The position numbers and the translations under genes were made by a program. This document shows, piece after piece, positions 7,568 to 50,870 of a stretch of DNA of 55,782 bases. The number at the start of each line of letters is the position of its first letter. Within the stretch, counting starts at the first letter, position 1. Source of the DNA: a virus. The notes under the pieces are model-generated. The model ran no database searches, was not told the DNA's origin, and saw only the letters and a list, made by a program, of their open reading frames with translations. Where the stretch lies: IMG/VR virus record IMGVR_UViG_3300031788_000021, positions 1-55,782 of that record. The stretch is one strand, 5' to 3'.

Positions 7568-10500
7568 GTGGCGGACCTGTTCGGACGCTGGCGCGCGCGC
7601 CTGGCCCTCGGGGGAGACCCCGGGGGTCAGGCCGCGCCGTTGCCCAGCGCCACAAATAATCCTGATGGGTTAGCCGAACCAGAGTCTCCGAGCGCATGGA
7701 GCGGGTATGGAGACATAGGGTGGATCGGCCCGAGCGGGAATTACTACCACATCAATTACTTGACGGAGCACATGGTGTGGCTCCGCTCCCAGGGAATAAA
7801 AAAACCGGATGGTTGGGTCCGCGTCGTCTCCGCTCCGGGGGTGTCCGAACTCGGACTTGACGTAAAGGGAGAAGGTGAGCCCAATGCCAACCAATGGGCG
7901 ACGATGGAGGAGTCGGTCAGGGAGTGCGGTGAAGACGCGGAGGTCTGGGTCGAGTATCCCAGCCGGTTCGCAAAATTTGTGGCCGGAGATTTTACGGACT
8001 CGGGAAAGACCCTGAAGGATTTCTGCTCTGGCGCTGTCAAATCGGACAAGGGTCTGGGCATATTGGAGCGCTTGGCCGCGCCGTCGTTTGAGGACGGCCT
8101 AACCGCCGCGACCCGCGAACTCGTGGTCCAAGTTCTTATGGAGAACGGCGACCAGATGCTCCAGGGCGCTCTTTACGACAAGGTCGCTGCCGACCTCGTT
8201 CGGGTCTGGTCCTCCACGGGGCGTCCCCCGATAAGTTTCGAGAGCGCCAAAATCTACGCCCAGTCCGCAGTCGACATGCTATTCGAGGTCCACCGCATCG
8301 ACCGAGAGGGAGAACCCGGGACCGAGGGCATGGTCTACCTCCAGTCTGATTTGCAGATGCTCGCGGATCAGATATACGGCATGATCTATTGGAACAAGGA
8401 CCCGATGACGCTGGAGCAGATCACCGCCGCGATGAAGGACTCCGTGAGGCGGGGCCGGACTCCGCAGGCGTACGATAACCAGCAGATAGACGGCGCCATA
8501 AACTCGGCCCTGAACTACCTGATAGACGACGAGCACCGGGTGAAGGTCACGGAGCACGGCTTCGTGGCCGCAGATGCACCGAAGATCACGGTCGACGAGG
8601 CCCAGAAGGGAGAGTTCCAGCCGAAGCCAGGATCGACGCCGGTTCAGGACGTGCTCCGGAAGACGAAGTTCGTCGACCCCGAGAAGGAAAAAAATCGGCT
8701 GCTCGACGAGTTCTCGCAGGGCAAGATCACGAGAGAGGTCCTCGACCAGAAGATGCGGCAGCTTCAGGCGTCTTTCCGCGATCGCTGGCTGCGCCGCGCC
8801 GAGAACCCGTTCCAGAGCCTGGACGACCTGAAGACGATGAAGCAGATGCAGCAGGCTGGCTGGGGCCTGTTCGTATCTGGCGGCGCCTACTTCGTCATCG
8901 AGCCCGGGCAGTCGCAGCCCCGCCGGGTCTCGGTCAAGGAACTGCGGAGCATCATGCAGAGCTTCCGCTCCGCGCCCTCGGGTCCGGCGGGCGACGACTA
9001 CGCCACGGGCTACGCCCTGGGCAAGGCCTACACCGACGGCTGGTCGATGAGTGACATCTTCAACCTCGACCCGATGGAGACCCTAGAGATGGCGGGCCAC
9101 ATGTTCGCCGTCTGCGAGAAGGGTGAGCCGGGCGCGAGGCTGATGCCAGCCGAAGGCGAGGGCGGCAAGGTCGTCAAGCAGTGGTTGAAACCGCACCCCA
9201 TCGGCGTGTCCTACTCCCAGGCCAAGGACAAGAAGTCGTTCGAGCGCGGGTTCCGCGCGGGCTGGGCTGCCGGAGAGACCAAAGAGGACAAGGCCTACCG
9301 TAAGCACCAGAAGCAGCCTAAGACCAAGAAGCCAGCGCCCGCTCCGCAGCCCAAGGAGAAGGTCAACCCCGAAGACCCCTTCTGCGCTGGCTTCAACCCG
9401 ACCAAGGAGTACGTCGACGTAGACGAGGGCGTCGAGGAGGGCCAGCCCGGTTACCGGAAGCCCGTCTCCTACTGCATCTGCGGCCACGCCCCATCCAGCC
9501 ACGAGGGCTGGACTCCGGAGTGGAAGCCGGGGATGCCCCTGGGCGGCTGCCAGTCCTGCGGCACGATCGGGGATGAGGAGGGCGACGACGGCTTCAGCGA
9601 GGCCTCGCTCAAGTCCCGCTGGTTCCGCCGCGCTTCTTCCAACAGCAATCTTGGGAAGTGGTTCAAGATCACCGGAGAACTCCGGGTCTGGGCGCGGGTC
9701 CCCAAGGACCGGGATGAGAAGGTCCCGACCATCGTCCTCCCCGTGGGTACGGAAGTTATGGTCATGCTGAAGGCCGAGATGCAACTTGGCCACCTCATGG
9801 CCATGTGGATTAGTTGGCCGAATCAAAAGGTTGAAGGAGTCGACCCAGGAGACGGCGAGGGCGTCGTCCGCTGCGAGGATTTCTACCGCGCTGCGGTGCC
9901 CATAGACAACTCTGCCAATTACCAGGGCCTGGTGGTCAAGAGCATCGAGTGGAAGAACTCGGACAAGACCCTGGGCTACGCCAGGTGGGGGACGAAGCGC
10001 GTCAGTGGTGGCGTGGCCTTCGCCATCGACGCCGGTGGCTCAGTCGTTTTCCTTGAAAGTCTGGACGATCCCGAGTCGGTGATCGCCGACTTCCAGCCTG
10101 AGGAGCTGCGCGCTCCCCTGACCGAGGCGATTCAGGCCGAGACGTTGCCCAAGGGCGAGCGCCCGGGCCAGATGAGGACCACGGACGTCCCCGTCGTCGA
10201 CCCCGAGCGGGAGAAGAACCGGCTGCTCGACGAATTCTCGACGGGGAAGATCACGCGCGAGGACCTCGACCGGAAGATCAGGATGCTGGAGGCGTCGTTC
10301 AGAGCCCGGTGGTTCCGGCGCGCTGTGAAGAAGATGGATCGATCGCCATCGGTATTCGTCTTCGGCGACAATGGCTGGATCATGCCAGATGGAAAGTTTT
10401 ATGCCCTCATGGAAGAGGAGGTTCATGAAGATTTCCTTGTAAAAAATAAGCTGAAGCCAGAGGGGCTGGTTCGGGTGTCGACCTTGGCGATTCAGAATAT

Positions 10501-13500
10501 CATGCTGAATGCCGAGGATCAGCTTAACCTAAATTTCAAGGGTGAGGGCACGGTTGAACAGTGGTCAGCGGCAACGAACATGGTTATGTCCGTTGGAGAA
10601 AAAGATGGGGTGGTCGTGGAGGGCCCTGGGTTCGGAGACGTATTCTACAGAAAAGAATTTGAGGAGTCGGGCCAGACTCTTCGAGACCAAGTAACCGGCA
10701 GAGATCGATCCGCTTCGTTTAAGTCCAAGTGGTTCGAGCGCCGGGCCGACATCGAGACCCGGATTCCGATCCTGATAAAGCAGTTCTTCCCCGACGCCGA
10801 TCCGAAGCGGGCCGAGGCCCGCATCCGCGAACTCGCGGCCATCGACCCCACCGGGAAGCAGGGCAAGTACTTGACCTGGCTCCTGAAGAACGAGGTCGAT
10901 CCCGGGACCGGGACCGCCGAGGACCTGCGCGACCTCCTCGCCGTCTACGACAAGGCCAAGTCCAAGGCCAAGTTCCCGGCTCAGTACCGGGACATCAACA
11001 GGATTCTCCCCCAGGACCTGAAGAAGATCGTGGACGAGCACGGGGCGGTTTTGTCCCAGCGCGAACTCGAACTCGCGGGTCAGAAGGTCGTCCGCGACGA
11101 TCACGACTGGAAGATCACGGAGATCACGAGCCCGGCCTCGGCCTCGGCGCTGCTCAAGGGCCGGGACTGGTGCGTCAAGGACCCCAGGTTCTCGGAGCAA
11201 TACCTGGCCGACGGGCCCCTCTACCTCGTCGAGGACAAGTCCGATGGCGAGGATTACCTGATCCACCCCGGACGCGGGGAGGTCAAGGACGAGGAGAACA
11301 ATACCCCGGTCTTGCAGGCTCCGAGGCTCAAGCTGAGCCTAGGTGACGACCCGCACGTGGGCCGCGCGATCGAGCATATGGAGGTCGACGTCGAGGACAT
11401 CCTGCGCGGTATGGGCGACGGCGACTACGAGGCCTCGGACATACCGACGAACGAACTGGACACCGCGCTCGGCCTCTGCATGGAAGAATACGAGTCATAT
11501 GGATACCTCATCTGGAATGTCGTTAGCGAGATGAAGGAGCGCGACATCTCAAGTCTGATCTCGCAGTATATGTGGGCGCGCGGCACCGCTCCAGGGCAGA
11601 AACGTAAAGGGGAACCGAATCAAGCCCAAGAGGACCTGATCCAGGCTCTGCCCATTGAAGAATTCAGCGAGGCCGTCCTGGCCTCGGGCAACGCCAAGCT
11701 CATGGCGGAATTCGCGGTCAAAATCCTGAACAGCCGCTGGCCCCAGGCCGAGCCCAAGATTATGGCCAACGAAGACGCCCGGATAGCGTACACGGACAGG
11801 TTCCCAGAGGAAGAGGCCCTGGTCCCCATGTACCGGCAGCCTCCTCCGGGGGCGCCGAAGCCGGAGCCGACGGAACCCGCAGCCCGCGAGACCGAGGAAC
11901 AGACAGAGGAGTTGCCCTTGGTCGACGCCCCGAAGCCTGGGCCCGGCGAGCCCGGGCACGTGTGGGAGCGGTCGATGCAGGTGCTCAAGGACGACCTGGA
12001 GCAGGGTCAGACCGACCCCGAGAGATACGAGACCAAGCGCCGCCAGATCATGTTCAGGCCCTGGAAGCTGCGGATGAAGGACTACGTCGACCCCGCTTCC
12101 CTGAGCCGGGAGAAGCTGGAGAACACCGAGCCCGAGGCCCTGGAGGAGTACCTGAAGCAGAACAAGGACGACCTCGCGCCCTGGTACAAGAACCTCCCCT
12201 ACGGGTCCAAGTCCGAGTTCACGGCCAGGCTCTTCGGGCGCTGGCTCCGCCGCGCCGCCGCCGACGAGCCCGAGGACGCCCCGGAGTTGACGACCGAGCA
12301 GAAGGTCCAGGCCCTGCTCTACGAGATCGCGCGCGACAACGAGGTCGCGGGCTGGATTCCCGACCCGGACGAACTGATCCGCGAGGTCACGAACTTCCTA
12401 GCCAATGAGGCTGGGGTCGACTACGATCAGGTTGACCGCAAGTGGGTCGAGGGCATGGTCGCCAAACTGGAGTACCCCGGTTGGCGCGCCTACCCCGACC
12501 CCAAGGCCGACCTGCCGCCCGGGATCAAGCTCAACTCCTTCCGAGACCGTTGGCTCCGTCGCGCCAGTGTCACTCCTGAAGGCAAGTGCCCCGCGTGCCA
12601 CAAGGCTCCCGGGCCCGGACGCTGCGAGCAGTGCACTGCCGAGAACAGGTTCCCGCACAATAGCGATGGTCGGATCGAGGTTGTCGAAGATGAGGGTATG
12701 GGCACTGTCAAGGCCATAGTCTGCGACTGGTGCGGGAAGAACTTAGCCTACTTCGACAAGGATACCCCGGACAGGGAGTGCGTTGGCTACTGCACTGAGT
12801 GCAATGATAACCCAGAGGTCCAGGCTGCCTGTGATGCGCTCCTCGCCGGACTCGGTATGGAGATGACTCCGGAGGGTCTCATGCAGGGAGAGCCCGTGGA
12901 GGACACGAGGATGATGGTGTCCGACGTCCCTTCCATGTCATCGGCGGATAAAAACAATGCCCTTAACAAACTCTTGGACCAGCATGAGAAGGCGGACCCC
13001 GAGACGAAGAAGATGCTGGAAGTGAAGATGCGGGAGTTGATGGGGAGTCGCTCTTGCTGGCTCCGCCGGTCCGCTCGGGCCAAGGCCCTGGTCCTCGACC
13101 CCCAGGTCTCGGTGGATCAGGAATTGATGGACCAGTACCTGGCCGTGGTCAAGAAGATGATCGATCATCCGGAGTCGGCGCAGGTCATCGAGAGTCAGAG
13201 GGTGGACCTCCACAACCGCCTGCGCGAGGACGCGCGGGTGCGGTTGCTGCGCAGGACCAGGGCCGAGGACACGGACCCGGGGTGGGACGACGACGTCTTC
13301 TTCCCCGTGGTGGAGAAGTTCGTGGAGGGCGTGCTCGGCTCTGAGGACTTCAACCGCTTCCTACAGGTATGGGATACGGCGAGCGAGCTGCGCGAGACCC
13401 GTCGCGCCTCCGACGCTTCGGTGCCCACCCCCTCCTCCAACCCCGATCACGATATAGCGCTCTACAACCTCCAGGACTCCGAGATTGAGCCGCTGCCCAA

Positions 13501-16500
13501 GCAGATTTGGGACGGGTACGAGCAGGCCAACTACCTCGGGATCGCGCTTGAGTGCTCCGGCGACATCTTCCGCGAACTCGTGGGCTGGAACGTCTGCGAG
13601 GGCTACGTCGGGGAGAAGACGCGGCGGATCAGGGTCTACTGGGACCGGCTGTTCCGACCGATAGAGCCCGAGGCTGAGGCCCTCTGCAAGCAGCTGGTCG
13701 CGCTGTGGTCGGGGATGGACTTGAACGGGAAGAGCCCGAGGCTGCTGGCGGTTCGGGCCCTGAACGTCGCGCTCGCGGCCCACGACAAGGCCGGGGCTGA
13801 AGCGGCGCTGAGTCAGGTCGAGGCCGGGAAGAAGAAGGCCTACTTCCGTAATCGCTGGCTCCGGTGCTTGGCCAAGGTATCTGATAATATCGGGGACGGG
13901 CTCGAATGGAGGCCCTCGAAAAAATGGCCCCCCAAGCCAGGTGACAGATACTTCTTCGAGTACCACTGCGAGGAGAGCGAGGGGTCGGCTGACGCTGAGT
14001 TGTGGCACCGCACACACCAGCCAGTTGAGGTCCTGGCAGTAGACGAGCCCAGTACCCCCGAGGGTGAGGCAGACGGAATCTTTGGCGCCTACACGATCAA
14101 GTTCCTGGATGGTTTTGAGGGATGCGCTGTCGGGGACGAACTCCTTGACTCCCCTGAACAATACGTCCGGCCCGATTATCGATCATCCCGCCGCGCCTCC
14201 TCGTCCAAGCGCAAGAAGTCCAAGAAGGGCACCGAGACCTTCAATGGCTTGGAGATCGCGATCGAGTTCTACCCCGGAGACCAGAAGACCTGCGACAGCG
14301 GCGACGTCGTGGACTATGATGACTTCTACGGCGAGGTCAAGGGCACGCAGACGATAGCCGACGGCGAGCCCGTCGACGTCTACCTGGCCGAGGACGCCCA
14401 CGGCAACGACGATCGCCCGGTCTTCGTCATCCACCAGCTGAAGAAGGACAAGTCCTACGACGAGGACAAGGTCATGCTCGGCTTCGTTGATGAGGCTGCG
14501 GCCATGAAGTGCTACGAGACCTCGGGTCCGCCCTGGGGCTTCGGGAGCCTCGATACCATGACCTGGGACCAGTTCCTCAACGGCTACCTCAAGAGTCACC
14601 AGTCCGCAGAGGACATGGGCGCCAAGTCCATGCCCGAGATCAAGGCCAGGTGGATGGCGCGCCGCGCCAGCAACAACGAGCAGAAACTGCTCAGGGAACT
14701 CGTCTGCACCGTGATCGGCTCCGACTCCATGACGGTCAACGAAGCCGTGCTCCCGGCGGGAACCGTCGTCGGCGTGCAGCCCCAGAGCAACGACCACACC
14801 ATCTTCTTCTACAGCCCACTCTACTCTCGGATGATCGAGCACGGAAAGACGTGGCGCAGCAACCAGTATGCCGCAAGCGTCGAGGATTTCCGCGCGGCCA
14901 CGGACATCGGGTACGGCGAGGGCACGGGCTACGAGCATGGCCCCGAGTGCTTCTGCGACGAGTGCATGGCGAAGGACGACCTCTTCACCCATCGCTGCCC
15001 GAGCTGCGGCAGCCGGGAGTGCCCAGGGGACGGCGACACCATCGACTGCCGCAAGCCCGGGACGATGACCCCGGAGGACGTCCCGGTGGAGACCCGCGAC
15101 AGCCTGCTCGACCGCTTCAACCGTGGTGAGATCGACGAGAAGGAGCTGCGCCGCCGCATGAAGCAGATTTCCATCCTTGTTCGGTGGATGCGGCGGCGCG
15201 CCAATGGCGAAACCTGGCGCTGCACTAGCTGCGATTTTGAGACTAATTCAGACGGATGGGCACAAGAGCACGCGGAGGAAACTGGTCACAGTATAGTTAG
15301 TCAGGGCAGGAAAGAGGAGACCCAACAAGATCATCTGGCGGGCCAGATATTATTTGCAGTCGAGCGCGACCTATCCCGTAACGGTCCCATGAAAGAGAGC
15401 GTCCTCAAGGCGGAGATGATGCGCCCCTGGGATGGTGTCGATAAAGAATTTTTTGATCTAGTTTTCAATAAGGCTCTGGCGATCCTTAATAAGTCTGGGA
15501 AGATTGAATTTAATCCATCGACCGACTCCTGGCAGATCAAGGGGGAGGTCCCGATCGCGAGTCTCCCTGAGTCCCCATCTGAGGTCCCGACTTTTAAGGG
15601 GCGTCAGCGGGAGATCGTGATCGACAAGCTGCTCGACCGCTGGAGCAAGGAACCCGGCGCACGCCCGCAGATCGAAGAGCAGTTGAGATCGTTGCGGGCG
15701 TTTAAGGCCTTATTCATGATGCGGCGCCGGGCCGTCGCCGACTACGAACTCCGGGTTGAACTCTGGTGCGGTCACAACGAGAATCTGCCCGTGGCGCGCG
15801 AGCGCTACCGTAAGGCCAAGGCCGTGGCTGACCAGTTTGGAGTTAGGTTCTGGTCCGAGGAGCACGATGAGGACAGGGACAACGTCTACGCCGACGGCTA
15901 CATCTACCCGACGACCAGGAATATCTTGGACGTCCTGTCCGCCTTGGATGCGGTTGGGGTCGAGTACGACAATGTCGATCTCCCGCAGGAACTTGAAGGG
16001 TCGACGATATACCGGGCGGTACGGGGCGCGATGCCCCGGAGTGTCGACGTCAACATCGGTACGATTCCAGCACGGATGGCGTCCTCCCGCGATCGGTGGA
16101 TGCGGCGCCGCGCTTCCCCCCTGGACGACCCCTCCAAGGACGTCAACGTCGACGGCTACATGCTGCGCCCCGAGGAGATGTCCGAGCCCTACTGGATCAA
16201 CGCCTGGATCAGCCCCAGTGGGAAGTTCTGCCCTATGGTCGGCATCAACCACGAGGACTTCATCGTCGAGCGCACAATCAGCGAGTTGATCGCCGAGGGC
16301 TGGATCAGGTTCGTGGCCGCAGAGTCCGGGACCGCGATCATCGACACGATCGCGGAGCCGACGTCGGCGCAGATGCCGGTGGTCGAGGCCCTGTTCTTCA
16401 TGTCCCCGGTCAAGACCCTAGAGATGGGGGTCGGCGATGACGAGGACTGGGGCTCGTTCTCGACCGTGTCCAAGATCACGGAGAACGATTTGAATGGCGG

Positions 16501-18685
16501 GTCACTGGCTGATGAAATCCACCGCGTGTTTCAGGATCAGGGCCAGAGGTTCACGGACCTGGGCAGGGACTGGTCGAAGCCGGAGGCTTCGTTCCGTGGC
16601 CGCTGGATCGCGGCCAAGAAGAAGTCCCGCCGCGAGCGCCAGGAGGCCAAGAACCCGGACCTCAAGCGCGAGAGCGACCTCATCCGCGAGAACAAGGAGA
16701 AGCCCGAGGCCAAGGCCCCCGAGAAGCGGCCCCAGATCGAGCAGCAGATCAAGTCCCTGGGCGCGCTGCGGGCGCTGTGGCGCGTTCGCGTCGCCGCCCG
16801 TAAGGACTGGAGCGCGTCCTTCCTCTTCGACCCAGTGGAGAATCCCGTCCCCTTCCCCAAGCCCGGCCAGAAGTCGGGGCTCTGGCGCGCCGGGGTCTGG
16901 AACGAGGGTGAGGACGACCTGGACCAGCTCTGGAAGCTGACCGTGGACAACGACTCCAAGTATTACGAGGCTGCGAAGCGCTCTCTCCCTGAATTATTCG
17001 GGAAGAATGACGGGTTCCTTGAGGGGATGCCGCTGCCGGTCAGGAACTACCCCAGGGCCGTGGCCTTCCTCAAGCGCATCTTCCCCCAAGCGTGCGAGGA
17101 GCACATCTACCCGACGTGGGGCAAGGCCGAGCCCGAGCCCGGCCACGAGGGAGACCCTTTCTATCAGGGCAGCAACCAGTGGAAGGATCAGGCGAAGGAC
17201 GTAATCGGGATCATCAAGGGCCTCTACGGCGAGGAGCAGGGCGCGGTGGAGCTGGAGAAGTTTTTGGGTCGCCTCAAGCCCGGCGAGCGTGAGGACTTCC
17301 TGGAGGAGGCCGCCGAGGACCCGCTTGCGGGCATGATCCGGGGCTTCCAGGATATCATCGACAAGCAGAGGGGCGTGGCCCCCAAGGCCAAGCCCAGCCC
17401 CAAGTCCGAGCTATTCGAGGAGCACGTTAAGGAGATGCCGATGCTGGACGAGCAGGAGCGCCAGGAGAGAATAGACGCGTTGCTGGATCAGCTTCCACAA
17501 ACAACCAGTGATGAGGAGAAGCGCCAGATCGAGCAACGCATCCGTTCCCTTCGGGCGTCGCTAAAGTCCGCGTGGCTGCGGAGCGCGGCCCGCAAGAAGA
17601 AGGTCCCGAAGCAGGAGCCCGTAGTCGACGATTCCCCGGAACCTACCGAGCCAGAAGAGGACGATATCATCATCAGCAAGTCGCGGCGCGGGTACTCCGC
17701 GCGGCAGAGCGGTAAAGAAGTCGCCAGCGCCGATAAGTACGATACCCTGCTCTGGCGCGTGAAGGAGTACATGGACAAGGCCAAGTTCTGGCCCAACGTC
17801 TGGGACCAGGGTGAGCGCGGAAACTGCAACCTCATCACGTCAACGGTCCATTCCTGGAAGCCGCCGGTGCCCCCTCCTTACGGGATCGAGGCCATGACCC
17901 TGGCCAAGAACATCTTCGCGGAGTTGTCTCCGGAAGAACTCCAGGGCGCGATGCAGGCCTACAATTCTTATCCCAATGGTTACCAGGGCGCGATGAGGCG
18001 CCTCTCTGATTGGGCCAAGAGCAACACCGGGGGCATGGAGCCGGACGTCCCCGAGTTCACCGACTCCTCTTTTTGGGAGGGCGTCGGCATCCAGGTCGTG
18101 CGCATGGTCGAGGAGGAGCAGAAGCGGGCTGAGGAGAAGAAGATCAAGAACCAGACCCCGAGTGCACCGACCGAGCGCGGACCCGATGACGTCCCGGTCA
18201 TGGACCCGGCCATGAACCAGAAGACCATCGATCGCCTCCTGGACGAGTACGTGGGGGCCGACCCCGAGAAGCGTGAGCAGATCGAGAATCGCCTGCGCAG
18301 CCTCAGGATGGGGTTCAGGTCCCTGTGGTTCCGCCGCGCCCACTGCGGCGCCTGCCACGAGATTCAGTTCGCGGCCCTGCACACGCTCGCGGACATCGCC
18401 GCCGAGCACCCGGACCTGGTGAGTAAGGACCTGATCGGCAAGCTCAGCGAGATGACGTCGGGTATGCACATCCAGGAGTTCGCCGACGAGCTGGTGGACG
18501 TCGCCCTCAAGATCGAGGGCACCGAGGGGCTGGAGGACAAGGTCAAGGAGCTGCGGAACAAGGCCAAGGTCCTGACCATGATCGAGAACGGGATCGACGA
18601 CGGCGACATCGAGGTCATCGACGAGCCCAAGGAAGGATCAACCAGATTCAAGTGGCTCAAGAGAGCCGCCAAGGAGGCCGCATGA
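7568..18685 (+). CDS. Giant multidomain polyvalent-like protein / candidate polyprotein
   Basis: The product has 3705 residues (roughly 410 kDa), with a GTG start. About 18 variants of an S-F-x-x-R-W-L-R-R-A motif punctuate it. Seven lie inside a longer module: [DE]-V-P, a spacer, LLD, a SHOCT-like helical hairpin, then the Arg/Trp motif (from residues 378, 886, 1802, 2513, 2688, 3305, 3557). Shorter copies lie near 9602, 10712, 12218, 12533, 13838, 14174, 14630, 16076, 16583, 16727 and at the C-terminus (18638). Between them are different small domains: three copies of a W-I-x-P-x-G domain (7706, 10351, 16196), two SH3-like paralogues (9644, 14680), a domain with a W-C motif near residue 1200, an inorganic-pyrophosphatase-like domain (about residues 2221-2345) and several zinc ribbons (about residues 606-665, 1674-1745, 2460-2498, 2551). 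This fits phage polyvalent proteins delivered with DNA. Cleavage at the motifs is inference. Confidence 0.75.
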   Translation: MADLFGRWRARLALGGDPGGQAAPLPSATNNPDGLAEPESPSAWSGYGDIGWIGPSGNYYHINYLTEHMVWLRSQGIKKPDGWVRVVSAPGVSELGLDVKGEGEPNANQWATMEESVRECGEDAEVWVEYPSRFAKFVAGDFTDSGKTLKDFCSGAVKSDKGLGILERLAAPSFEDGLTAATRELVVQVLMENGDQMLQGALYDKVAADLVRVWSSTGRPPISFESAKIYAQSAVDMLFEVHRIDREGEPGTEGMVYLQSDLQMLADQIYGMIYWNKDPMTLEQITAAMKDSVRRGRTPQAYDNQQIDGAINSALNYLIDDEHRVKVTEHGFVAADAPKITVDEAQKGEFQPKPGSTPVQDVLRKTKFVDPEKEKNRLLDEFSQGKITREVLDQKMRQLQASFRDRWLRRAENPFQSLDDLKTMKQMQQAGWGLFVSGGAYFVIEPGQSQPRRVSVKELRSIMQSFRSAPSGPAGDDYATGYALGKAYTDGWSMSDIFNLDPMETLEMAGHMFAVCEKGEPGARLMPAEGEGGKVVKQWLKPHPIGVSYSQAKDKKSFERGFRAGWAAGETKEDKAYRKHQKQPKTKKPAPAPQPKEKVNPEDPFCAGFNPTKEYVDVDEGVEEGQPGYRKPVSYCICGHAPSSHEGWTPEWKPGMPLGGCQSCGTIGDEEGDDGFSEASLKSRWFRRASSNSNLGKWFKITGELRVWARVPKDRDEKVPTIVLPVGTEVMVMLKAEMQLGHLMAMWISWPNQKVEGVDPGDGEGVVRCEDFYRAAVPIDNSANYQGLVVKSIEWKNSDKTLGYARWGTKRVSGGVAFAIDAGGSVVFLESLDDPESVIADFQPEELRAPLTEAIQAETLPKGERPGQMRTTDVPVVDPEREKNRLLDEFSTGKITREDLDRKIRMLEASFRARWFRRAVKKMDRSPSVFVFGDNGWIMPDGKFYALMEEEVHEDFLVKNKLKPEGLVRVSTLAIQNIMLNAEDQLNLNFKGEGTVEQWSAATNMVMSVGEKDGVVVEGPGFGDVFYRKEFEESGQTLRDQVTGRDRSASFKSKWFERRADIETRIPILIKQFFPDADPKRAEARIRELAAIDPTGKQGKYLTWLLKNEVDPGTGTAEDLRDLLAVYDKAKSKAKFPAQYRDINRILPQDLKKIVDEHGAVLSQRELELAGQKVVRDDHDWKITEITSPASASALLKGRDWCVKDPRFSEQYLADGPLYLVEDKSDGEDYLIHPGRGEVKDEENNTPVLQAPRLKLSLGDDPHVGRAIEHMEVDVEDILRGMGDGDYEASDIPTNELDTALGLCMEEYESYGYLIWNVVSEMKERDISSLISQYMWARGTAPGQKRKGEPNQAQEDLIQALPIEEFSEAVLASGNAKLMAEFAVKILNSRWPQAEPKIMANEDARIAYTDRFPEEEALVPMYRQPPPGAPKPEPTEPAARETEEQTEELPLVDAPKPGPGEPGHVWERSMQVLKDDLEQGQTDPERYETKRRQIMFRPWKLRMKDYVDPASLSREKLENTEPEALEEYLKQNKDDLAPWYKNLPYGSKSEFTARLFGRWLRRAAADEPEDAPELTTEQKVQALLYEIARDNEVAGWIPDPDELIREVTNFLANEAGVDYDQVDRKWVEGMVAKLEYPGWRAYPDPKADLPPGIKLNSFRDRWLRRASVTPEGKCPACHKAPGPGRCEQCTAENRFPHNSDGRIEVVEDEGMGTVKAIVCDWCGKNLAYFDKDTPDRECVGYCTECNDNPEVQAACDALLAGLGMEMTPEGLMQGEPVEDTRMMVSDVPSMSSADKNNALNKLLDQHEKADPETKKMLEVKMRELMGSRSCWLRRSARAKALVLDPQVSVDQELMDQYLAVVKKMIDHPESAQVIESQRVDLHNRLREDARVRLLRRTRAEDTDPGWDDDVFFPVVEKFVEGVLGSEDFNRFLQVWDTASELRETRRASDASVPTPSSNPDHDIALYNLQDSEIEPLPKQIWDGYEQANYLGIALECSGDIFRELVGWNVCEGYVGEKTRRIRVYWDRLFRPIEPEAEALCKQLVALWSGMDLNGKSPRLLAVRALNVALAAHDKAGAEAALSQVEAGKKKAYFRNRWLRCLAKVSDNIGDGLEWRPSKKWPPKPGDRYFFEYHCEESEGSADAELWHRTHQPVEVLAVDEPSTPEGEADGIFGAYTIKFLDGFEGCAVGDELLDSPEQYVRPDYRSSRRASSSKRKKSKKGTETFNGLEIAIEFYPGDQKTCDSGDVVDYDDFYGEVKGTQTIADGEPVDVYLAEDAHGNDDRPVFVIHQLKKDKSYDEDKVMLGFVDEAAAMKCYETSGPPWGFGSLDTMTWDQFLNGYLKSHQSAEDMGAKSMPEIKARWMARRASNNEQKLLRELVCTVIGSDSMTVNEAVLPAGTVVGVQPQSNDHTIFFYSPLYSRMIEHGKTWRSNQYAASVEDFRAATDIGYGEGTGYEHGPECFCDECMAKDDLFTHRCPSCGSRECPGDGDTIDCRKPGTMTPEDVPVETRDSLLDRFNRGEIDEKELRRRMKQISILVRWMRRRANGETWRCTSCDFETNSDGWAQEHAEETGHSIVSQGRKEETQQDHLAGQILFAVERDLSRNGPMKESVLKAEMMRPWDGVDKEFFDLVFNKALAILNKSGKIEFNPSTDSWQIKGEVPIASLPESPSEVPTFKGRQREIVIDKLLDRWSKEPGARPQIEEQLRSLRAFKALFMMRRRAVADYELRVELWCGHNENLPVARERYRKAKAVADQFGVRFWSEEHDEDRDNVYADGYIYPTTRNILDVLSALDAVGVEYDNVDLPQELEGSTIYRAVRGAMPRSVDVNIGTIPARMASSRDRWMRRRASPLDDPSKDVNVDGYMLRPEEMSEPYWINAWISPSGKFCPMVGINHEDFIVERTISELIAEGWIRFVAAESGTAIIDTIAEPTSAQMPVVEALFFMSPVKTLEMGVGDDEDWGSFSTVSKITENDLNGGSLADEIHRVFQDQGQRFTDLGRDWSKPEASFRGRWIAAKKKSRRERQEAKNPDLKRESDLIRENKEKPEAKAPEKRPQIEQQIKSLGALRALWRVRVAARKDWSASFLFDPVENPVPFPKPGQKSGLWRAGVWNEGEDDLDQLWKLTVDNDSKYYEAAKRSLPELFGKNDGFLEGMPLPVRNYPRAVAFLKRIFPQACEEHIYPTWGKAEPEPGHEGDPFYQGSNQWKDQAKDVIGIIKGLYGEEQGAVELEKFLGRLKPGEREDFLEEAAEDPLAGMIRGFQDIIDKQRGVAPKAKPSPKSELFEEHVKEMPMLDEQERQERIDALLDQLPQTTSDEEKRQIEQRIRSLRASLKSAWLRSAARKKKVPKQEPVVDDSPEPTEPEEDDIIISKSRRGYSARQSGKEVASADKYDTLLWRVKEYMDKAKFWPNVWDQGERGNCNLITSTVHSWKPPVPPPYGIEAMTLAKNIFAELSPEELQGAMQAYNSYPNGYQGAMRRLSDWAKSNTGGMEPDVPEFTDSSFWEGVGIQVVRMVEEEQKRAEEKKIKNQTPSAPTERGPDDVPVMDPAMNQKTIDRLLDEYVGADPEKREQIENRLRSLRMGFRSLWFRRAHCGACHEIQFAALHTLADIAAEHPDLVSKDLIGKLSEMTSGMHIQEFADELVDVALKIEGTEGLEDKVKELRNKAKVLTMIENGIDDGDIEVIDEPKEGSTRFKWLKRAAKEAA
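8699..8800 (+). repeat. SHOCT-like + RWLRRA module, copy 1
   Basis: Starts LLDEFSQGKITREVLDQK and ends SFRDRWLRRA. The first part resembles the SHOCT short helical hairpin seen at protein termini; the Arg/Trp motif follows directly. It separates the first W-I-x-P-x-G/winged-helix-like region from the next domain. Confidence 0.8.
10223..10324 (+). repeat. SHOCT-like + RWFRRA module, copy 2
   Basis: Starts LLDEFSTGKITREDLDRK and ends SFRARWFRRA; it is the closest match to copy 1. A DVPVVDPEREKN leader precedes it. It separates an SH3-like domain from the second W-I-x-P-x-G domain. Confidence 0.8.
12971..13075 (+). repeat. SHOCT-like + WLRRSA module, copy 3
   Basis: Starts LLDQHEKADPETKKMLEVK and ends SCWLRRSA, preceded by DVPSMSSADKNN. 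It follows the paired zinc ribbons. Confidence 0.75.
15104..15202 (+). repeat. SHOCT-like + RWMRRRA module, copy 4
   Basis: Starts LLDRFNRGEIDEKELRRR and ends VRWMRRRA, preceded by DVPVETRDS. It is followed by a C2H2-like zinc finger (WRCTSCDF ... H). Confidence 0.75.
15629..15733 (+). repeat. SHOCT-like + MMRRRA module, copy 5
   Basis: Starts LLDRWSKEPGARPQIEEQ and ends ALFMMRRRA, preceded by EVPTFKGRQ. The Trp is replaced by Met. Confidence 0.7.
17480..17590 (+). repeat. SHOCT-like + WLRSAA module, copy 6
   Basis: Starts LLDQLPQTTSDEEKRQIEQ and ends SAWLRSAA, preceded by EMPMLDEQERQ. Confidence 0.75.
18236..18340 (+). repeat. SHOCT-like + WFRRA module, copy 7
   Basis: Starts LLDEYVGADPEKREQIENR and ends FRSLWFRRA, preceded by DVPVMDPAMN. 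It is followed by the C-terminal helical domain, which itself ends in a WLKRAA motif. Confidence 0.75.
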
Positions 18686-18998: not shown

Positions 18999-19032
18999 GC
19001 CCTCTCCGGGGTCATGGCTCCCCGGGGAGGGC
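18999..19032. terminator. GC-rich intergenic hairpin
   Basis: GCCCTCTCCGGGG pairs with CCCCGGGGAGGGC around a 7-base loop, with one mismatch in each arm. It occupies the gap between two coupled gene blocks. There is no T-run, so termination is uncertain; RNA stability or attenuation is equally possible. Confidence 0.4.
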
Positions 19033-19043
19033 GAGGTGCGATA

Positions 19044-19385
19044 ATGAGTGATGAGGAGCGGGAGGCCGCTGGCACGGCGCCCCAGTCGTCGGAGGACTTC
19101 GTTGCCGGGGCCGTGGACGCGGTCCGGCGCGGGCTGGCTATGGGCCTCGACCAGGAGCGCGCGGTTGAGCACGCCCTGGTCAACTGGAACATGATGTCCC
19201 AGATGCTGCGCGGCGCCGACCTAACCCCGGAGGAGGTGGCCGAGGTCAGGAGTCGGTCCTCCGTGCCCGGGTCTAGTCCGACGCCGCAACAGGCGGCGTT
19301 GTCTAGCGACCTCCTTGAGCAGTACGCCCAGGGCCAGATCACGCAGACGGAGATGGAGCAGAGGATCGCGCGGGGGGCGCCATGA
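19044..19385 (+). CDS. Small protein with C-terminal SHOCT-like hairpin
   Basis: The product has 113 residues. I chose ATG 19044 because GAGG lies a few bases upstream; an upstream in-frame start falls inside the GC hairpin. The N-terminal two thirds are helical (EDFVAGAVDAVRRGLAMGLD). The last 24 residues (from nt 19311, LLEQYAQGQITQTEMEQRI) closely resemble the SHOCT-like part of the giant protein's modules. The next gene overlaps by ATGA. A role with the giant protein or terminase is possible from position. Confidence 0.6.
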   Translation: MSDEEREAAGTAPQSSEDFVAGAVDAVRRGLAMGLDQERAVEHALVNWNMMSQMLRGADLTPEEVAEVRSRSSVPGSSPTPQQAALSSDLLEQYAQGQITQTEMEQRIARGAP

Positions 19386-19945: not shown

Positions 19946-21634
19946 GTGGATACACCAGCACAGGGAGGAGTTCTGGACGGCGAAGAAGAACCGATAGTCT
20001 TCAGCATGGCAGACGCCTTCTCCTCGCTGATGGACGTCCCCATCCGCGAGGTTGAGGCCGACCGCCACGAGGGGGACGTCCTCGCGCCTTCTGTCTCCGC
20101 CCGCTCCTTCGTCGACCCCCAGGGATTCACCAAGTACTATTTTAATCAGACCCTGTGCTCGAACCAGGTCGACATCGTCGGGGCCCTGACCTCCGACGCC
20201 AGGACCTCGATCACGGTCGAACCTCGACAAGTAGGTAAAACCAGTTCGGTCGCGGTTGCTTGCTCGATCCTGTGCGAGACCGAGGGCTTGGAGTGGAACA
20301 AGGACCATCCCGAATCCTACCGCATCGGCATCTTCGCGCCGAAGGCGGCGCAGGCGCAGCTGGACACGGACAGGATCAAGTCCTGGGCGCGATACACGAA
20401 GCAGGGCCGGGCCCTGATCAACTGGGAGGAGTCGACGAACGATAGGATCGTCTGGCACAACGGATCAGAGATCAGGATTTACTCCGCGTCTGAGCAGGCC
20501 GAGAACGACGGCAAGACCCTGAACCGGATCATCCTGGAAGAGGCGCAGAAGATCAGCGACGTCGTCGTGAGCCAGTCGATCCTGCCCATGGGCGGAGCGG
20601 TCGCGGCGAAGATCGCCAAGATCGGGACCGTGCGCCCGATCCGCAACCACTTCTTCAACTCGTGGCACAACGACGCGAAGGCCTTGAAGACCTGGCACCA
20701 CTGGCTGATCTGCGATAACCTCCTGCGCGGCGGCTTCCGCGAGTACGGTGGCCGCAAGATCAGCCAGTACGTCCTCGATATGATGCCCCTGGCCGAGAAG
20801 GAAAAGTACATCCGCGCGGGAATCTTCCCCCAGAACCCCGACTTCTACTACCCCGGTCAGCAGGAACTCAACGACTTCCTGACCCAGTACGAACTCCGGT
20901 GGCTGGAGCAGTTCGGCCTCTTCCTGGATGGTCGGGAGAAGGCGATCCTCTTCAGCGGGTTCACCCCGTTCCAGGATTCTCAGAAGTCTATGGAGGAGGA
21001 GATATACGCGGGCATCGACTTCGCGACCGGGGTCGGGGCCGACGAGACCGCTGTTTCGGTCTGGCGCCGCCGGGGAGCGGTCCTGACCAAGATATGGGGC
21101 TGTTCCTGGTCGGACATGCCCGCGCCAGATCAGAAGCGGGAGCTGCTCAACCTCTTCTGCAAGCGGGGCCCGTTCTACGGAGTGCGACTGGGCCTCGGCG
21201 ACTTCGGCGGCAACGGTGCCGCCATCATCCCGGAGCTGGCCGAGGCCGGGCTCCCGTTCCAGAGCATCAGCTTTGGCTCCAACGACAAGAACATCGTCGG
21301 GGCCTCGATGAACATGAAGACGTCGATGTTCCTCGACTTCAAGCGCCAGCTCCAGATGGGGTGGCTGCGCTACCCCGTCATGGACTCGTCGACGCCGATC
21401 GAGTTGCAGATGGACTATCAGAAGGGCGTCCGGCAGTGGACGGCCCTGGAGCAGGAGATCATCGGCTTCGGTATCAACCGCCGCATCCAATCCCCAGACT
21501 CGGATCACGACGACCTGTGCTGTGCCGACATTTTAGCAGTGCGCGCGGCCAAGATCGGACCGCAGCCCCTGGGCCAGCGCCGGTCCACGATCGGGCCGAT
21601 GCCATACTTCATCGTCAGGAGCCAGTTCCGATGA
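19946..21634 (+). CDS. terL: Terminase large subunit (packaging ATPase/nuclease)
   Basis: The 562-residue product is the DNA-packaging motor and nuclease at the portal. Walker A: PRQVGKTS, residues 93-100. Walker B: RIILEEA, 194-200, with the catalytic Glu in LEEAQ. The RNase H-like nuclease domain has its first Asp in AGIDFATG (D357), the second in GLGDFGGNG (D418) and the third cluster in SPDSDHDD (D518-D522). Length is typical for large phages. GTG start with a GAGG-type site upstream. Unlike the three head genes downstream it has no intein. The next gene overlaps by ATGA. Confidence 0.93.
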   Translation: MDTPAQGGVLDGEEEPIVFSMADAFSSLMDVPIREVEADRHEGDVLAPSVSARSFVDPQGFTKYYFNQTLCSNQVDIVGALTSDARTSITVEPRQVGKTSSVAVACSILCETEGLEWNKDHPESYRIGIFAPKAAQAQLDTDRIKSWARYTKQGRALINWEESTNDRIVWHNGSEIRIYSASEQAENDGKTLNRIILEEAQKISDVVVSQSILPMGGAVAAKIAKIGTVRPIRNHFFNSWHNDAKALKTWHHWLICDNLLRGGFREYGGRKISQYVLDMMPLAEKEKYIRAGIFPQNPDFYYPGQQELNDFLTQYELRWLEQFGLFLDGREKAILFSGFTPFQDSQKSMEEEIYAGIDFATGVGADETAVSVWRRRGAVLTKIWGCSWSDMPAPDQKRELLNLFCKRGPFYGVRLGLGDFGGNGAAIIPELAEAGLPFQSISFGSNDKNIVGASMNMKTSMFLDFKRQLQMGWLRYPVMDSSTPIELQMDYQKGVRQWTALEQEIIGFGINRRIQSPDSDHDDLCCADILAVRAAKIGPQPLGQRRSTIGPMPYFIVRSQFR

Positions 21635-23857: not shown

Positions 23858-26800
23858 ATGCCGACCGATTTCTCGTTCGTCAAGCCCGAGGGTTGGGAGA
23901 TGATGAAGCCCGACTTCGAGAAGGCGGAGAAGAAGTGGCTGGAGAAGGTCAAGAAGAAGGAGATCGATCAGGCGACGGCGGACAAGATCGTGAAGCTGAT
24001 GTGGGACAAGTACGACCGATGGTCAAAGGGTAAGGGCCTGAAGAAGAAAGAGGACCAGACAATGATACAGAGGCACGAGAAGCCTAAGCACAAGGAAGAG
24101 CGCCAGGCCATGGTCCGTGAGGCCAGGATAGGCCGGACTCAACTGGTGGACATCCTCAATGCGATCACTAATGGGACGGTAGACAATCCCAATGCCTTCG
24201 CTTATACCCTGCAACTCAATCAGATTGCCGATGCCGAGTTTTTCGACATGTTCTCCAGCGATGTCCAGACTTACCCCCAACTTTACCCAGATTCCTTGGT
24301 AAGCTATTTCCAGAATTTATTCAAGGAATGGGGTTTTGGCCCTGGCCTTGACAACTTGAAGAAGACGGCCATGAACAGGCAAGCTCGGGTCAACAGGCAG
24401 CAACTGGTTGAAATTCTGAACATGATAACCGGAGGCAATGGTCCGATATGGAATTCGGAAGATTTCCCTCGGGTTCTGGAGCAGAAGAGAATAAGCGAGG
24501 ACGAGTTCTTCAACATTTTCGCCGAGGACGTAAAATCATTTCCCAATCTGTATCCCCGCCATTTCATTAACTATTTTCAGGACTTGTTCGAGGATTGGGG
24601 TTACGGTCCTGAAATGGAGCGCGTGAGAAAAGCCTATCGAGGGAACAACGGACCGAAACCTAACCCAATACCTTCCGGTGGTCCTGGGCGGGCCCCAGCT
24701 CAGGCCCCAGCTCAGGCCCCAGCTCAGGCCCCAGCTCAGGCCCCAGCTCAGGCCCCAGCCGCCGGTCCCGGGCAGGTCCCCGAGGCCCCGGCCCCCGGGC
24801 AGTACCCGACCGAGCCCCAGCCGTGGCCGCAGGGGATGGAGCCTCCGCGCAGCGCCCAGGGCCCGGTCTTCCGCTACTACGTCCTGTTCCGGATGCCGGG
24901 TGAGCAGCAGCAGCGCGCGGCGATCGCCGAGGGCGTGAGCCAGGCCGACATGGGCGCGTGGCTGAACAAGCAGCAGGCGGCCAAGGTCCAGTTCTTCCAG
25001 GCCAAGCAACTGAGCGGGGGCCAGGCGACCCCGGTTCCCGGACCGGGCGTCGCCGCCAAGGTCCCGATCAAGGTTCCGGTATCGATTCCTGCTGGAGGTG
25101 AGTCCGAGACTTCAAGTGGTATGATCGAGACTTCAAGTGGTATGATCGAGACTCCAAACCCAATGGACCCCAAGAGATATCTTTGGGGTATGAAGTTTAA
25201 GACGAAATCGGGGCATATCGGCGTGATCCCAAACCCGGCACGTCCAGATGTAAGGGCCCCGAATATGACCGGAACCGAGATGATACATCTCATGGAATGG
25301 TATGAGAAGGCGGGTTTGCCCATCATCGAGCTACACAAGACTGGTCCGGGTGTCGAGGCCAGGATAGGGGATGACATTATGGTTCGCATGGCTCAATCGG
25401 AGACTCCTGAAGACAAGTTCAAGTCCGGGACCCCCGTGATCTTCACCGACGACGTCAACCTTGAGTTCTCGTCCCTCTCCGCTCGGGGGCCGGTCAAGAA
25501 GAACATGACCGGGCGCGTCAAGAAGGTCGACGACCAGAACTACACCATCGACATCGCCGGGCAGATGTACCTCGTCCCCAAGATCGTGGCGGAGTCGGTC
25601 ATGTCCGAGTTCAAGCCCGAGGTCGTGGTCGACGAGGGCGACTTGGAGGGCGGGCAGCAGGAAGCACCCGCACCTTCGCCCGAGGCCGCCGCCGCCGCTC
25701 CCGAAGCTGCTCCGGAGCCCCAGGATCAGGTGGAGATCGAGGAGCAGCCCCAGGCCCCGCAGGCCCCGGCGCCGGTGGGCGGCGCCCCCAAGACCGACCT
25801 GTCCAAGGCCCCGAAGCCGCAGGCCAAGCCCCAGCCAGTGGCGAGCGTGGATGACGGGAGTATCGTGGTTCTGGCCTCCGAGCTAGAGGACGGATCGATC
25901 ACCAGCTTCGCCAGCACCTACGAGGAGCGCCCCGACCTCGGCGACATCACAGGCGCCCTCAGGGGCATGGTCGTCGTCGCAGCGTCGATGACCAACCGCG
26001 ACGTCGCCAAAGCCTTCGCTAGGGGCGGGGAAAAGGCCAGGTCCAAGCACATGTTCATCGACGGAGACACCGTCTACTCCTACGGCACGCACTTCCCGAT
26101 CGCGACCAGAGCCGATGACGGCACCATCTACTTCACGAGCAAGAGCTACAGTGCCTCGACTTCGGTGCACAAGAGCCTGGTCCGGAAGGAGCTGTCGATC
26201 AAGGGACTCACCATTCAGGAGTCCTCCGTGACCCTGGGCGACAAGGTCGGGCCGCCGAACCCCGAGGACAAGGCCATGCAGGACAAGCGCGACGCCTCGG
26301 AGCAGCGCCGCCAGGAGCGCCGCCAGAAGCGGCAGGTCGGCAGGCCCTCGGAACCGGTGGCGGAGGAGTCCTACGCCCCGGGTCCGACCGCGCCCCAGAC
26401 CGGCAAGGACGCGATCCCGGGTATGGGCCCGCTCATGAAGAGGCACACGGTCCCGGCGCCGCGCAAGGAGGAACCCTCCTACTTCAACATGGAGAAGGAG
26501 GTCCCGACGATGAAGCCCGGTCAGCAGCAGATCGTCCTGGATCGCCTGCTTGATCAGCTCTCCCAGGAGTCCGACCCCGAGAAGCGGAAGCAGATCGAGG
26601 AGAGGATCAGGTCGGTGCAAGCCTCGATCAGGGCGATGATGCTCCGGCGCGCCGAACTCATCGGGATCGATGGGCTTGAGCAGGAGGTCGCGGACAGGAC
26701 CAAGGAGAAGTTCCATATCAAGGACGACGACGGCCCCATCAAGAACTTGCCGGTGAGCGAACCCTTCTCGCGGCAGAACACGAAGCCGCTCAACACCGCC

Positions 26801-26923
26801 TCGAAGTCCGAGGCCTTCGCCGACCTCCTGATGCTGATCGAGCGCGAGGCCCCGGGCGTCCCGTCCGAGATCGGGAGGAGACTCTACCGTGCAGACGGTG
26901 CTGTCACGCCCCACAACAGATAA
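23858..26923 (+). CDS. Large modular virion protein carrying the RRA module
   Basis: The product has 1021 residues. The N-terminus (EKKWLEKVKKKEIDQATADK) is SHOCT-like. A duplicated ~85-residue domain follows (nt ~24110-24366 and ~24370-24642; both contain a V-[DE]-I-L-N-x-I-T-x-G segment and a Y-F-Q-[ND]-L-F-x-[ED]-W-G segment). Then come a 12-bp-repeat Pro/Ala/Gln linker (24691-24762), an insert-like AT-richer segment (25106-25400), an acidic Pro-rich linker, and an alpha/beta domain near 25900-26200. Near the C-terminus lies a complete SHOCT-like + MLRRA module (26546-26653), the same as in the giant protein. It is probably an internal or injected virion protein. Pieces look assembled from cassettes of differing base composition. 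Confidence 0.65.
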   Translation: MPTDFSFVKPEGWEMMKPDFEKAEKKWLEKVKKKEIDQATADKIVKLMWDKYDRWSKGKGLKKKEDQTMIQRHEKPKHKEERQAMVREARIGRTQLVDILNAITNGTVDNPNAFAYTLQLNQIADAEFFDMFSSDVQTYPQLYPDSLVSYFQNLFKEWGFGPGLDNLKKTAMNRQARVNRQQLVEILNMITGGNGPIWNSEDFPRVLEQKRISEDEFFNIFAEDVKSFPNLYPRHFINYFQDLFEDWGYGPEMERVRKAYRGNNGPKPNPIPSGGPGRAPAQAPAQAPAQAPAQAPAQAPAAGPGQVPEAPAPGQYPTEPQPWPQGMEPPRSAQGPVFRYYVLFRMPGEQQQRAAIAEGVSQADMGAWLNKQQAAKVQFFQAKQLSGGQATPVPGPGVAAKVPIKVPVSIPAGGESETSSGMIETSSGMIETPNPMDPKRYLWGMKFKTKSGHIGVIPNPARPDVRAPNMTGTEMIHLMEWYEKAGLPIIELHKTGPGVEARIGDDIMVRMAQSETPEDKFKSGTPVIFTDDVNLEFSSLSARGPVKKNMTGRVKKVDDQNYTIDIAGQMYLVPKIVAESVMSEFKPEVVVDEGDLEGGQQEAPAPSPEAAAAAPEAAPEPQDQVEIEEQPQAPQAPAPVGGAPKTDLSKAPKPQAKPQPVASVDDGSIVVLASELEDGSITSFASTYEERPDLGDITGALRGMVVVAASMTNRDVAKAFARGGEKARSKHMFIDGDTVYSYGTHFPIATRADDGTIYFTSKSYSASTSVHKSLVRKELSIKGLTIQESSVTLGDKVGPPNPEDKAMQDKRDASEQRRQERRQKRQVGRPSEPVAEESYAPGPTAPQTGKDAIPGMGPLMKRHTVPAPRKEEPSYFNMEKEVPTMKPGQQQIVLDRLLDQLSQESDPEKRKQIEERIRSVQASIRAMMLRRAELIGIDGLEQEVADRTKEKFHIKDDDGPIKNLPVSEPFSRQNTKPLNTASKSEAFADLLMLIEREAPGVPSEIGRRLYRADGAVTPHNR
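24691..24762. repeat. 12-bp tandem repeat (Ala-Pro-Ala-Gln linker)
   Basis: Five exact copies of GGCCCCAGCTCA plus a partial sixth. In frame they encode APAQ repeats, a flexible linker. Confidence 0.9.
25106..25147. repeat. 21-bp tandem duplication
   Basis: GAGACTTCAAGTGGTATGATC occurs twice in a row and a third GAGACT follows. It encodes ETSSGMI twice and marks the left edge of an AT-richer domain inside the 1021-residue protein. Confidence 0.9.
26546..26653 (+). repeat. SHOCT-like + MLRRA module shared with giant protein
   Basis: Starts LLDQLSQESDPEKRKQIEE, ends SIRAMMLRRA, preceded by EVPTMKPGQQQ. Order and spacing match the modules of the giant protein, especially copies 6 and 7 (17480, 18236). 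Confidence 0.8.
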
Positions 26924-31599: not shown

Positions 31600-31618
31600 G
31601 GGACCAGGAGAACAGACC

Positions 31619-34600: not shown

Positions 34601-34759
34601 ACGCACGACTGGTGCACGCTCTGGAACACGGCGGTGGAGAACCTGGTGATGCTGCCGAGCGGGGCCGTCGTCCCCAAGAGCATGGCGGGGATGTCCTCCG
34701 AGCCCCACGGCGAGGGCGGACCCCGGCAGTTCGGTCGGGACATGGATCAGAGCGGGTGA
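31619..34759 (+). CDS. Large modular virion protein with zinc ribbons
   Basis: The product has 1046 residues; I prefer ATG 31619, preceded by CCAGGAGAAC, over an upstream in-frame ATG at 31565 inside the previous gene. VKMAS lies near residue 58. Further on: beta-rich domain (~110-210), long Pro/Gln/Ala linkers, a zinc ribbon (CQLCNG ... CPKCEK), then a four-Cys element (CKNCKHLMV ... PICGAA ... CAGY). [21 protein letters not shown] segment followed by AVAWSIKDK matches a short conserved element common in structural proteins of large phages ('PGWE..VK.MKK...I.NPFA.AW.MK'). Overlaps the next gene. Likely an internal or tail-associated protein; no enzymatic motif seen. Confidence 0.6.
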
Positions 34760-44495: not shown

Positions 44496-44726
44496 ATGAG
44501 CATGATCAAGCAAGGAGCACCGAAGGAGTCAAAGGTACTGGGCTTCGATCCGGCGGCGGGCTGGGTCGACCCCAAGTCCAAGGCCCAGCCTATGATCCCA
44601 GAACTGAACGTCTCGTGCCCGAACTGCCGCGTCCTGGCCCAGGCCAGCGCCGACGGCACCGTCTTCTGCCCGAAGTGCGGGATGATCATAAATCCCAGCA
44701 GCACCAACGAGAGGAAACCCCTATGA
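44496..44726 (+). CDS. Small zinc-ribbon protein
   Basis: The product has 76 residues. CPNCRVL and CPKCGMI are spaced 15 residues apart, a classic zinc ribbon. The stop overlaps the protease start (ATGA), so the two are co-translated. It probably acts in head assembly; no further evidence. Confidence 0.65.
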   Translation: MSMIKQGAPKESKVLGFDPAAGWVDPKSKAQPMIPELNVSCPNCRVLAQASADGTVFCPKCGMIINPSSTNERKPL

Positions 44727-50796: not shown

Positions 50797-50870
50797 CGCC
50801 GCAGACGCAGACGTCGCACCGCGACGGGCCCGGACGGCCAGTGGCCCGCGCATCGAAGGAGGAGGTCAGC

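Follow-up and report, generated by a model that had tools for sequence, protein, structure and literature searches.

A giant phage polyvalent protein punctuated by Arg/Trp tags that border exchanged cassettes: a candidate polyprotein substrate of the prohead protease

Polyvalent proteins are very large, carry InPase, ART and nucleotidyltransferase domains and are encoded with portal and terminase genes nearby, and their description already likens them to the polyproteins of RNA viruses (Iyer et al. 2017, PMC5512222). Release of their domains is proposed there to occur mainly through embedded zincin peptidases or through C-terminal assemblin-like peptidases. The Dar proteins of phage P1 (DarB, DdrB), which are likewise large, act in anti-restriction and are packaged in the head, with processing reported or presumed for some, are products of separate genes, and DarB bears a single N-terminal packaging signal (PMC9024508, PMC5512222). 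In phage T4, internal proteins are loaded as effectors by a short capsid targeting sequence, one protein per gene with the signal at its N-terminus, and the prohead protease gp21 cuts after Glu at L/I-x-E sites throughout the head proteins. In the phiKZ-like giant phage SPN3US, ejected head proteins are cut at several motifs by the prohead protease gp245, which cuts after A-x-E with Ser favoured after the cut and strips N-terminal propeptides; no string of separate effectors is made there (PMC10052503).

The locus considered here resembles these systems in part. The window, by which we mean the whole stretch of DNA that was analysed, makes up one complete IMG/VR record (55,782 bases) and carries a tailed-phage head gene cluster with terminase, portal, MuF-like protein, prohead protease, putative scaffold and major capsid protein genes. 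Relatives of its capsid protein reach contigs of 379 kb, which places it in a giant-phage family. The capsid and the giant protein, scanned against a genome collection, gave nothing, so that no host is assigned, and Rfam and tRNA scans of the window returned nothing. Beside the portal and terminase packaging genes, as expected of a polyvalent protein, lies a single very long gene whose product, hereafter the giant, is similarly built of polyvalent-type domains. Unlike the polyvalent proteins in the consulted parts of PMC5512222, its chain is punctuated by a repeated inter-domain tag that delimits exchanged cassettes; those parts make no mention of a tag that delimits cassettes and carries a protease-like signature, and a limited search of the open-licence literature found no report of such a repeated tag. 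Where DarB has its single N-terminal signal, the giant has repeated internal tags; where T4-type targeting uses one N-terminal signal per protein, the giant has 18 tags per chain, internal and C-terminal; and where gp21 cuts after Glu, the giant would be cut after Ala.

A sequence-only reading had described one 3,705-codon gene in which about 18 variants of an Arg/Trp motif recur, the last at the very C-terminus, and this description holds. The reading frame is open throughout, and a scoring search for S-F-x-x-R-W-[LFM]-R-R-A finds 18 motifs, compared with an average of 0.81 and never more than 4 in 200 residue shuffles (Table 1). Synonymous codons vary among the copies, so they have been kept as protein and are not recent DNA repeats. 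The same reading placed a larger module at seven of the motifs, and seven full copies were indeed found, plus a degenerate one near residues 3050-3071. The module spans about 50 residues and comprises [DE]-V-P, LLD, a hairpin and the Arg/Trp motif. The 'SHOCT-like' label given to the hairpin survives as a weak resemblance: Pfam SHOCT (PF09851) matches 2 of 13 module copies, with a best E of 0.03, and the gathering score is not reached.

Table 1. Positions of the giant gene, its motifs, modules and cassettes, and of neighbouring head genes in the window
Feature	Position	Strand	Basis or remark
Giant multi-cassette protein	7568..18685	+	GTG start, 3,705 aa, no internal stop
N-terminal degenerate motif LFGRWRARLALG	7574..7609	+	scored motif search
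Motif SFRDRWLRRAEN	8771..8806	+	G002 homology breaks here, window aa 403
Motif SLKSRWFRRASS	9605..9640	+	G002 homology restarts directly after, aa 695
Motif SFRARWFRRAVK	10295..10330	+	scored motif search
Motif SFKSKWFERRAD	10715..10750	+	scored motif search
Motif RLFGRWLRRAAA	12227..12262	+	end of G002 homology block, aa 1563
Motif SFRDRWLRRASV	12536..12571	+	scored motif search
Motif GSRSCWLRRSAR	13043..13078	+	start of G002 homology block, aa 1829
Motif YFRNRWLRCLAK	13841..13876	+	scored motif search
Motif EIKARWMARRAS	14636..14671	+	scored motif search
Motif SILVRWMRRRAN	15170..15205	+	end of G002 homology block, aa 2543
Motif AFKALFMMRRRA	15698..15733	+	scored motif search
Motif SSRDRWMRRRAS	16082..16117	+	start of G002 homology block, aa 2842
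Motif SFRGRWIAAKKK, without RRA	16589..16624	+	scored motif search
Motif ALRALWRVRVAA	16763..16798	+	scored motif search
Motif SLKSAWLRSAAR	17558..17593	+	scored motif search
Motif GFRSLWFRRAHC	18311..18346	+	scored motif search
C-terminal motif STRFKWLKRAAK	18638..18673	+	very end of the giant reads GSTRFKWLKRAAKEAA, then stop
Full module 1	8645..8800 (residues 360-411)	+	module profile
Full module 2	10181..10324 (residues 872-919)	+	module profile
Full module 3	12917..13072 (residues 1784-1835)	+	module profile
Full module 4	15071..15199 (residues 2502-2544)	+	module profile
Full module 5	15575..15730 (residues 2670-2721)	+	module profile
Full module 6	17426..17587 (residues 3287-3340)	+	module profile
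Full module 7	18182..18340 (residues 3539-3591)	+	module profile
InPase domain cassette, PF18823	14219..14575	+	Pfam E 8.8e-20
W-I-x-P-x-G cassette	10343..10747; again 7700-8137 and 16109-16603	+	alignment
Small gene	19014..19385	+	matches domain inside G001 multi-cassette protein: 42% over 48 aa, 63% over 27 aa
Terminase large subunit	19946..21634	+	
Head-cluster protein with one full module at 26495-26653	23858..26923	+	module profile (eighth full copy)
Portal protein, with intein	39256..42297	+	KTA near N-terminus
Prohead (head maturation) protease, intein-like insert; candidate acting protease	44615..46858	+	phrog_18299 E 1.9e-11
K-I-A just behind protease domain	46706..46714	+	relatives there have KIA, KVA, KKA or RRA
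Major capsid protein	50841..51752	+	

A protein search of IMG/VR recovered two further giants, one of 3,902 aa in G002 (IMGVR_UViG_3300046698_000306, at L004:4976-16681) and one of 2,324 aa in G001 (IMGVR_UViG_3300038829_000269, at L005:8039-15010). They contain 17 and 10 Arg/Trp motifs, respectively, against shuffle means of 0.7 and 0.5, and the presence of the architecture in three independent contigs rules out an assembly artefact. A profile built from the window copies of the module alone recovers G001 modules outside the profile with domain E values of 1e-11 to 2e-15; run against 32 related records, the module profile found the module in the close relatives G001 and G002 only, with no match accepted in the remaining records and a weak one in G020 (E 0.08) disregarded. 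Ten stretches outside G002 that carry the exact DNA pattern for S-F-x-x-R-W-x-R-R-A across IMG/VR, in short or unrelated frames, were judged to be chance occurrences.

When the window protein and its homologues are considered together, one chain is seen to unite several unrelated effector domains known from the polyvalent repertoire. The segment that had been read as pyrophosphatase-like is an InPase domain by Pfam (E 9e-20), the G001 giant has InPase plus NTP_transf_2 (Pfam E 1.5e-4), and the G002 giant has InPase plus ART-PolyVal (PF18760, Pfam E 5.6e-13). These domains and the head-gene context uphold the description of the giant as polyvalent-like, and judged by domain content and context it is a polyvalent protein, a known kind. 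Other labels fared less well, in that Pfam gave no confirmation of the 'SH3-like' and 'winged-helix-like' segments and the zinc-finger matches to the proposed zinc ribbons fall under the Pfam cut-offs. Segments of G001 read by eye as ART-, GNAT- and ParB-like likewise received no confirmation from a PDB sequence search. For most cassettes no recognisable relative was found, and NCBIfam had no match to the window protein. By alignment, the W-I-x-P-x-G domain is present in three copies in the giant and one in the gene at 29291-30598; its AlphaFold model (pLDDT 73) matched nothing below E 0.001 in a Foldseek search of the PDB and viral models. A model of two adjacent cassettes (pLDDT 53) was too poor for judging accessibility. 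Neither HExxH nor HExxxH zincin motifs were found in the three giants, which therefore give no sign of the self-cleavage suggested for many polyvalent proteins. An embedded zincin peptidase is present in about 36% of the polyvalent family according to PMC5512222, and hence is not strictly a defining feature.

The comparison with G002 gives the cassettes their borders. DNA blocks common to the window and G002 are mostly 97-98% identical (one is 79%) and are separated by unrelated sequence, and between the blocks whole domains have been swapped, inserted or deleted. Six of the eight block ends lie no more than 5 residues from a motif (Table 1), and the vicinity of motifs covers 10.6% of the protein (binomial p 3e-5). 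The two other ends, at window residues 174 and 3048, are not at a motif; at residue 174, G002 has an inserted ART-PolyVal domain closing in ASFRDRWLRRAA, so the right border of the insert is also a motif. The ends at residues 2543 and 2842 enclose extra motif-bounded units of the window that are exactly absent from G002. In the G001 giant the window's cassettes are reordered, with InPase, for example, after rather than before its neighbour, and one cassette of the G002 giant recurs in a different, multi-domain gene of G001 (66% over 105 columns). Cassette borders thus mostly fall at motifs, and the exchange strongly supports the earlier proposal that the stretches between motifs are separate units whose ends the motifs mark. 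The check that came with it, whether single domains with one motif also occur alone, has a largely positive answer in the module of a second head-cluster protein and in the giant-protein cassette in the multi-domain gene of G001. A lack of equal motif spacing in homologues, which the same reading named as counter-evidence, does not count against it in that form: the spacing does differ, through the exchange of entire cassettes, and the motifs stay at the cassette ends.

In a more distant relative, G018, large proteins encoded between terminase and portal are punctuated by A-S-L-x-x-K-A (e.g. A-S-L-N-K-K-A-[DE]). The class [KR][TIVKR]A was chosen from the relatives after this lead, and head-cluster proteins were tested for it against shuffles. 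It is enriched in the head-cluster proteins of six relatives (z 9.6, 8.8, 6.9, 6.9, 6.3 and 4.5) and, with the giant left out, in the head proteins of the window (z 5.6). Reversed and substituted patterns are mostly near zero in head-cluster proteins, and non-structural proteins of the same contigs lie between z -0.5 and 2.5 apart from a single value of 4.9. When every residue pair at gaps of 0-3 is scanned without preselection in the head-cluster proteins of five divergent relatives, [KR].A comes first of about 900 pairs in four of them and second in G018. Pooled over the relatives it has z 12.0 and ranks first of 1,264, followed by the dipeptide A-S; its rank is 441 in the relatives' non-structural proteins, and the head proteins of the window itself show no enrichment of this broad pair (rank 235). 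As a control, the same scan of known T4 gp21 substrates puts L.E first, which is the known consensus, and T4 non-substrates have no L.E excess. The gp21 substrates also have a mild excess of [KR][TIVKR]A (z 2.7), and some of the signal may accordingly be a common property of scaffold-like proteins.

The signature also recurs directly behind the catalytic domain of the prohead protease in the window (LEKIAAL) and in most relatives (e.g. LEKIAHL, LEKKANE, TERRANS, ISKVANN and AIKTARS), and close to several portal N-termini. Bacillus phage G, the nearest cultured phage by terminase (32%), resembles the window family in both respects, with [KR][TIVKR]A favoured in its head proteins (z 4.2) and LEKVASK behind the protease domain of gp19; it differs in that a search of cultured phages with the giant matched the InPase domain alone and found no other relative of the protein. 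Within the giant, 13 of the 21 occurrences of [KR][TIVKR]A sit inside Arg/Trp motifs and 8 outside. Thirteen of the 18 motifs end in the [KR]xA signature, a consensus derived statistically, and the remaining five read RRSA, RCLA, IAAK, RSAA and RARLA. The S-F-x-x-R-W half is missing from most [KR]xA sites; it is therefore not part of the general site and probably adds docking to the scaffold, or loading. The simplest reading is that [KR]-x-A represents the prohead protease consensus before the cut, with Ala at P1 and Ser favoured after it. Herpesvirus assemblin likewise has Ala at P1. The earlier suggestion that the motifs are cleavage signals thereby gains independent statistical support from the head proteins, while the cleavage itself is a prediction from sequence.

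On balance we favour, with somewhat more confidence than doubt, the reading that the giant, a polyvalent protein, is a polyprotein whose cassettes are effectors cut apart by the prohead protease and delivered by the virion. That the chain is cut, by which protease, and that its parts are packaged and delivered are steps that we infer: exchange units, end tags, a protease-like signature, a head maturation protease gene within the cluster, as expected for a polyprotein processed in this way, and the lack of a zincin together favour cutting in trans by the prohead protease. Unrelated small domains, several from enzyme families thought to be injected against host responses, are strung together, each ending in a short, basic and amphipathic Arg/Trp tag that in seven cases follows a helical hairpin and that usually ends in R-R-A, a form of what appears to be a family-wide head-protein signature. 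The giant chain would enter the prohead together with the scaffold, the prohead protease from the same cluster would cut it behind the tags during maturation, and the released domains, most with a C-terminal S-F-x-x-R-W tag, would remain in the head and exit with the DNA. Several tags read A-S-F...R-R-A, and in these, cuts on either side may remove the tag altogether. Because each unit set off by tags is self-contained, recombination can exchange one effector, insert a new one or delete one and leave the others intact. The more specific version, in which one gene yields about fifteen injected effectors through a capsid maturation protease that cuts at tags doubling as exchange borders, is advanced more tentatively, as a possibility whose chances we put at not quite even.

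Such an arrangement bears on how polyvalent domains are freed and how new domains join them, and it can be approached through two kinds of evidence: the units are marked out by the exchange of cassettes in nature among nearly identical phages, and the positions of head-protease cutting are predicted from a statistical signature common to the family. If true, the favoured reading would yield an inventory of small injected effectors whose borders are exact, predict the capsid-protease specificity of a large giant-phage group, and offer a candidate tag to load proteins into phage heads.

The main rival, which we consider unlikely but serious, is that the polyvalent protein is packaged and injected uncut, as is N4 vRNAP, the motifs being structural inter-domain helices that bind DNA or scaffold or assist unfolding or threading through the portal. 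PMC5512222 describes transfer at full length for N4 vRNAP and for two plasmid proteins, ArdC and TraC1; the motif is basic, with a helix predicted at low confidence, and its cleavage-like ending is found in only 13 of the 18 copies. Set against injection of an intact chain are the identity of the final tripeptide with the top signature of the family's head proteins and the position of the motif at exact exchange boundaries. Less probable still, and doubtful on present evidence, is that the tags are packaging signals only and that the gene is a fusion of once-separate tagged genes, whose repeats would raise avidity for the scaffold. Short signals do load internal proteins in T4 and P1 (PMC9024508), and single-module proteins are encoded in the window and G001; however, the known signals are N-terminal and one per protein, whereas the giant has its tags internally and at the C-terminus, and a tag used purely for packaging needs no protease-like final tripeptide. 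We regard it as very improbable that the giant is absent from the virion and acts as a multi-domain enzyme or assembly scaffold in the infected cell: its position among the head genes bears on virion presence indirectly, but its domains belong to the set known from injected polyvalent proteins, and the gene adjoins terminase and has a second module-bearing protein in its head cluster. That the motif has no role in the protein and is a recombination-prone repeat left by cassette shuffling would account for exchange boundaries at the motif but is scarcely credible given the amino acids kept while codons differ among copies, the purifying selection on the giant (pN/pS 0.34 against its nearest homologue, in G002, counted inside shared blocks) and the related but different spacer of G018.

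The neighbouring head genes of this family have further features of their own. In G016, G020, G024 and G027 the prohead protease domain continues into a large C-terminal extension rich in [KR]xA, the fusion measuring about 1,400 aa in all; in the window, protease and scaffold-like genes are separate. Inteins with LAGLIDADG or Hint domains are present in the portal gene and the MuF-like gene (42731-44494) of the window, and the prohead protease gene has a comparable insert, which brings the number to three in neighbouring head genes. The major capsid gene is split in different frames into two pieces in G005 (L085) and three in G018 (L073-L074) by inserts, perhaps introns or inteins, each about 0.5 to 1 kb long. 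Between terminase and portal, the window gene at 34759-36177 encodes an mCpol (minimal CRISPR polymerase) domain (PF18182, E 1e-20; PADLOC CARF_HEPN_mCpol, E 5e-13) with homologues in G005 and G010; encoded within a phage head cluster, such a Cas10-like cyclase might serve in signalling or as a decoy. In the adjoining region at 30595-34759, the small phage families phrog_1915 and phrog_3908/DUF7417 occur as domains within large head-cluster proteins, which may be taken as a second sign of fused accessory proteins. A stand-alone InPase protein of 186 aa is encoded on a 494 kb viral contig (L090, IMGVR_UViG_3300005681_000225). Finally, the first 5 kb of the window contain several low-complexity coding repeats, among them a long Asp-Ala repeat in a small ORF at 2540-2935.
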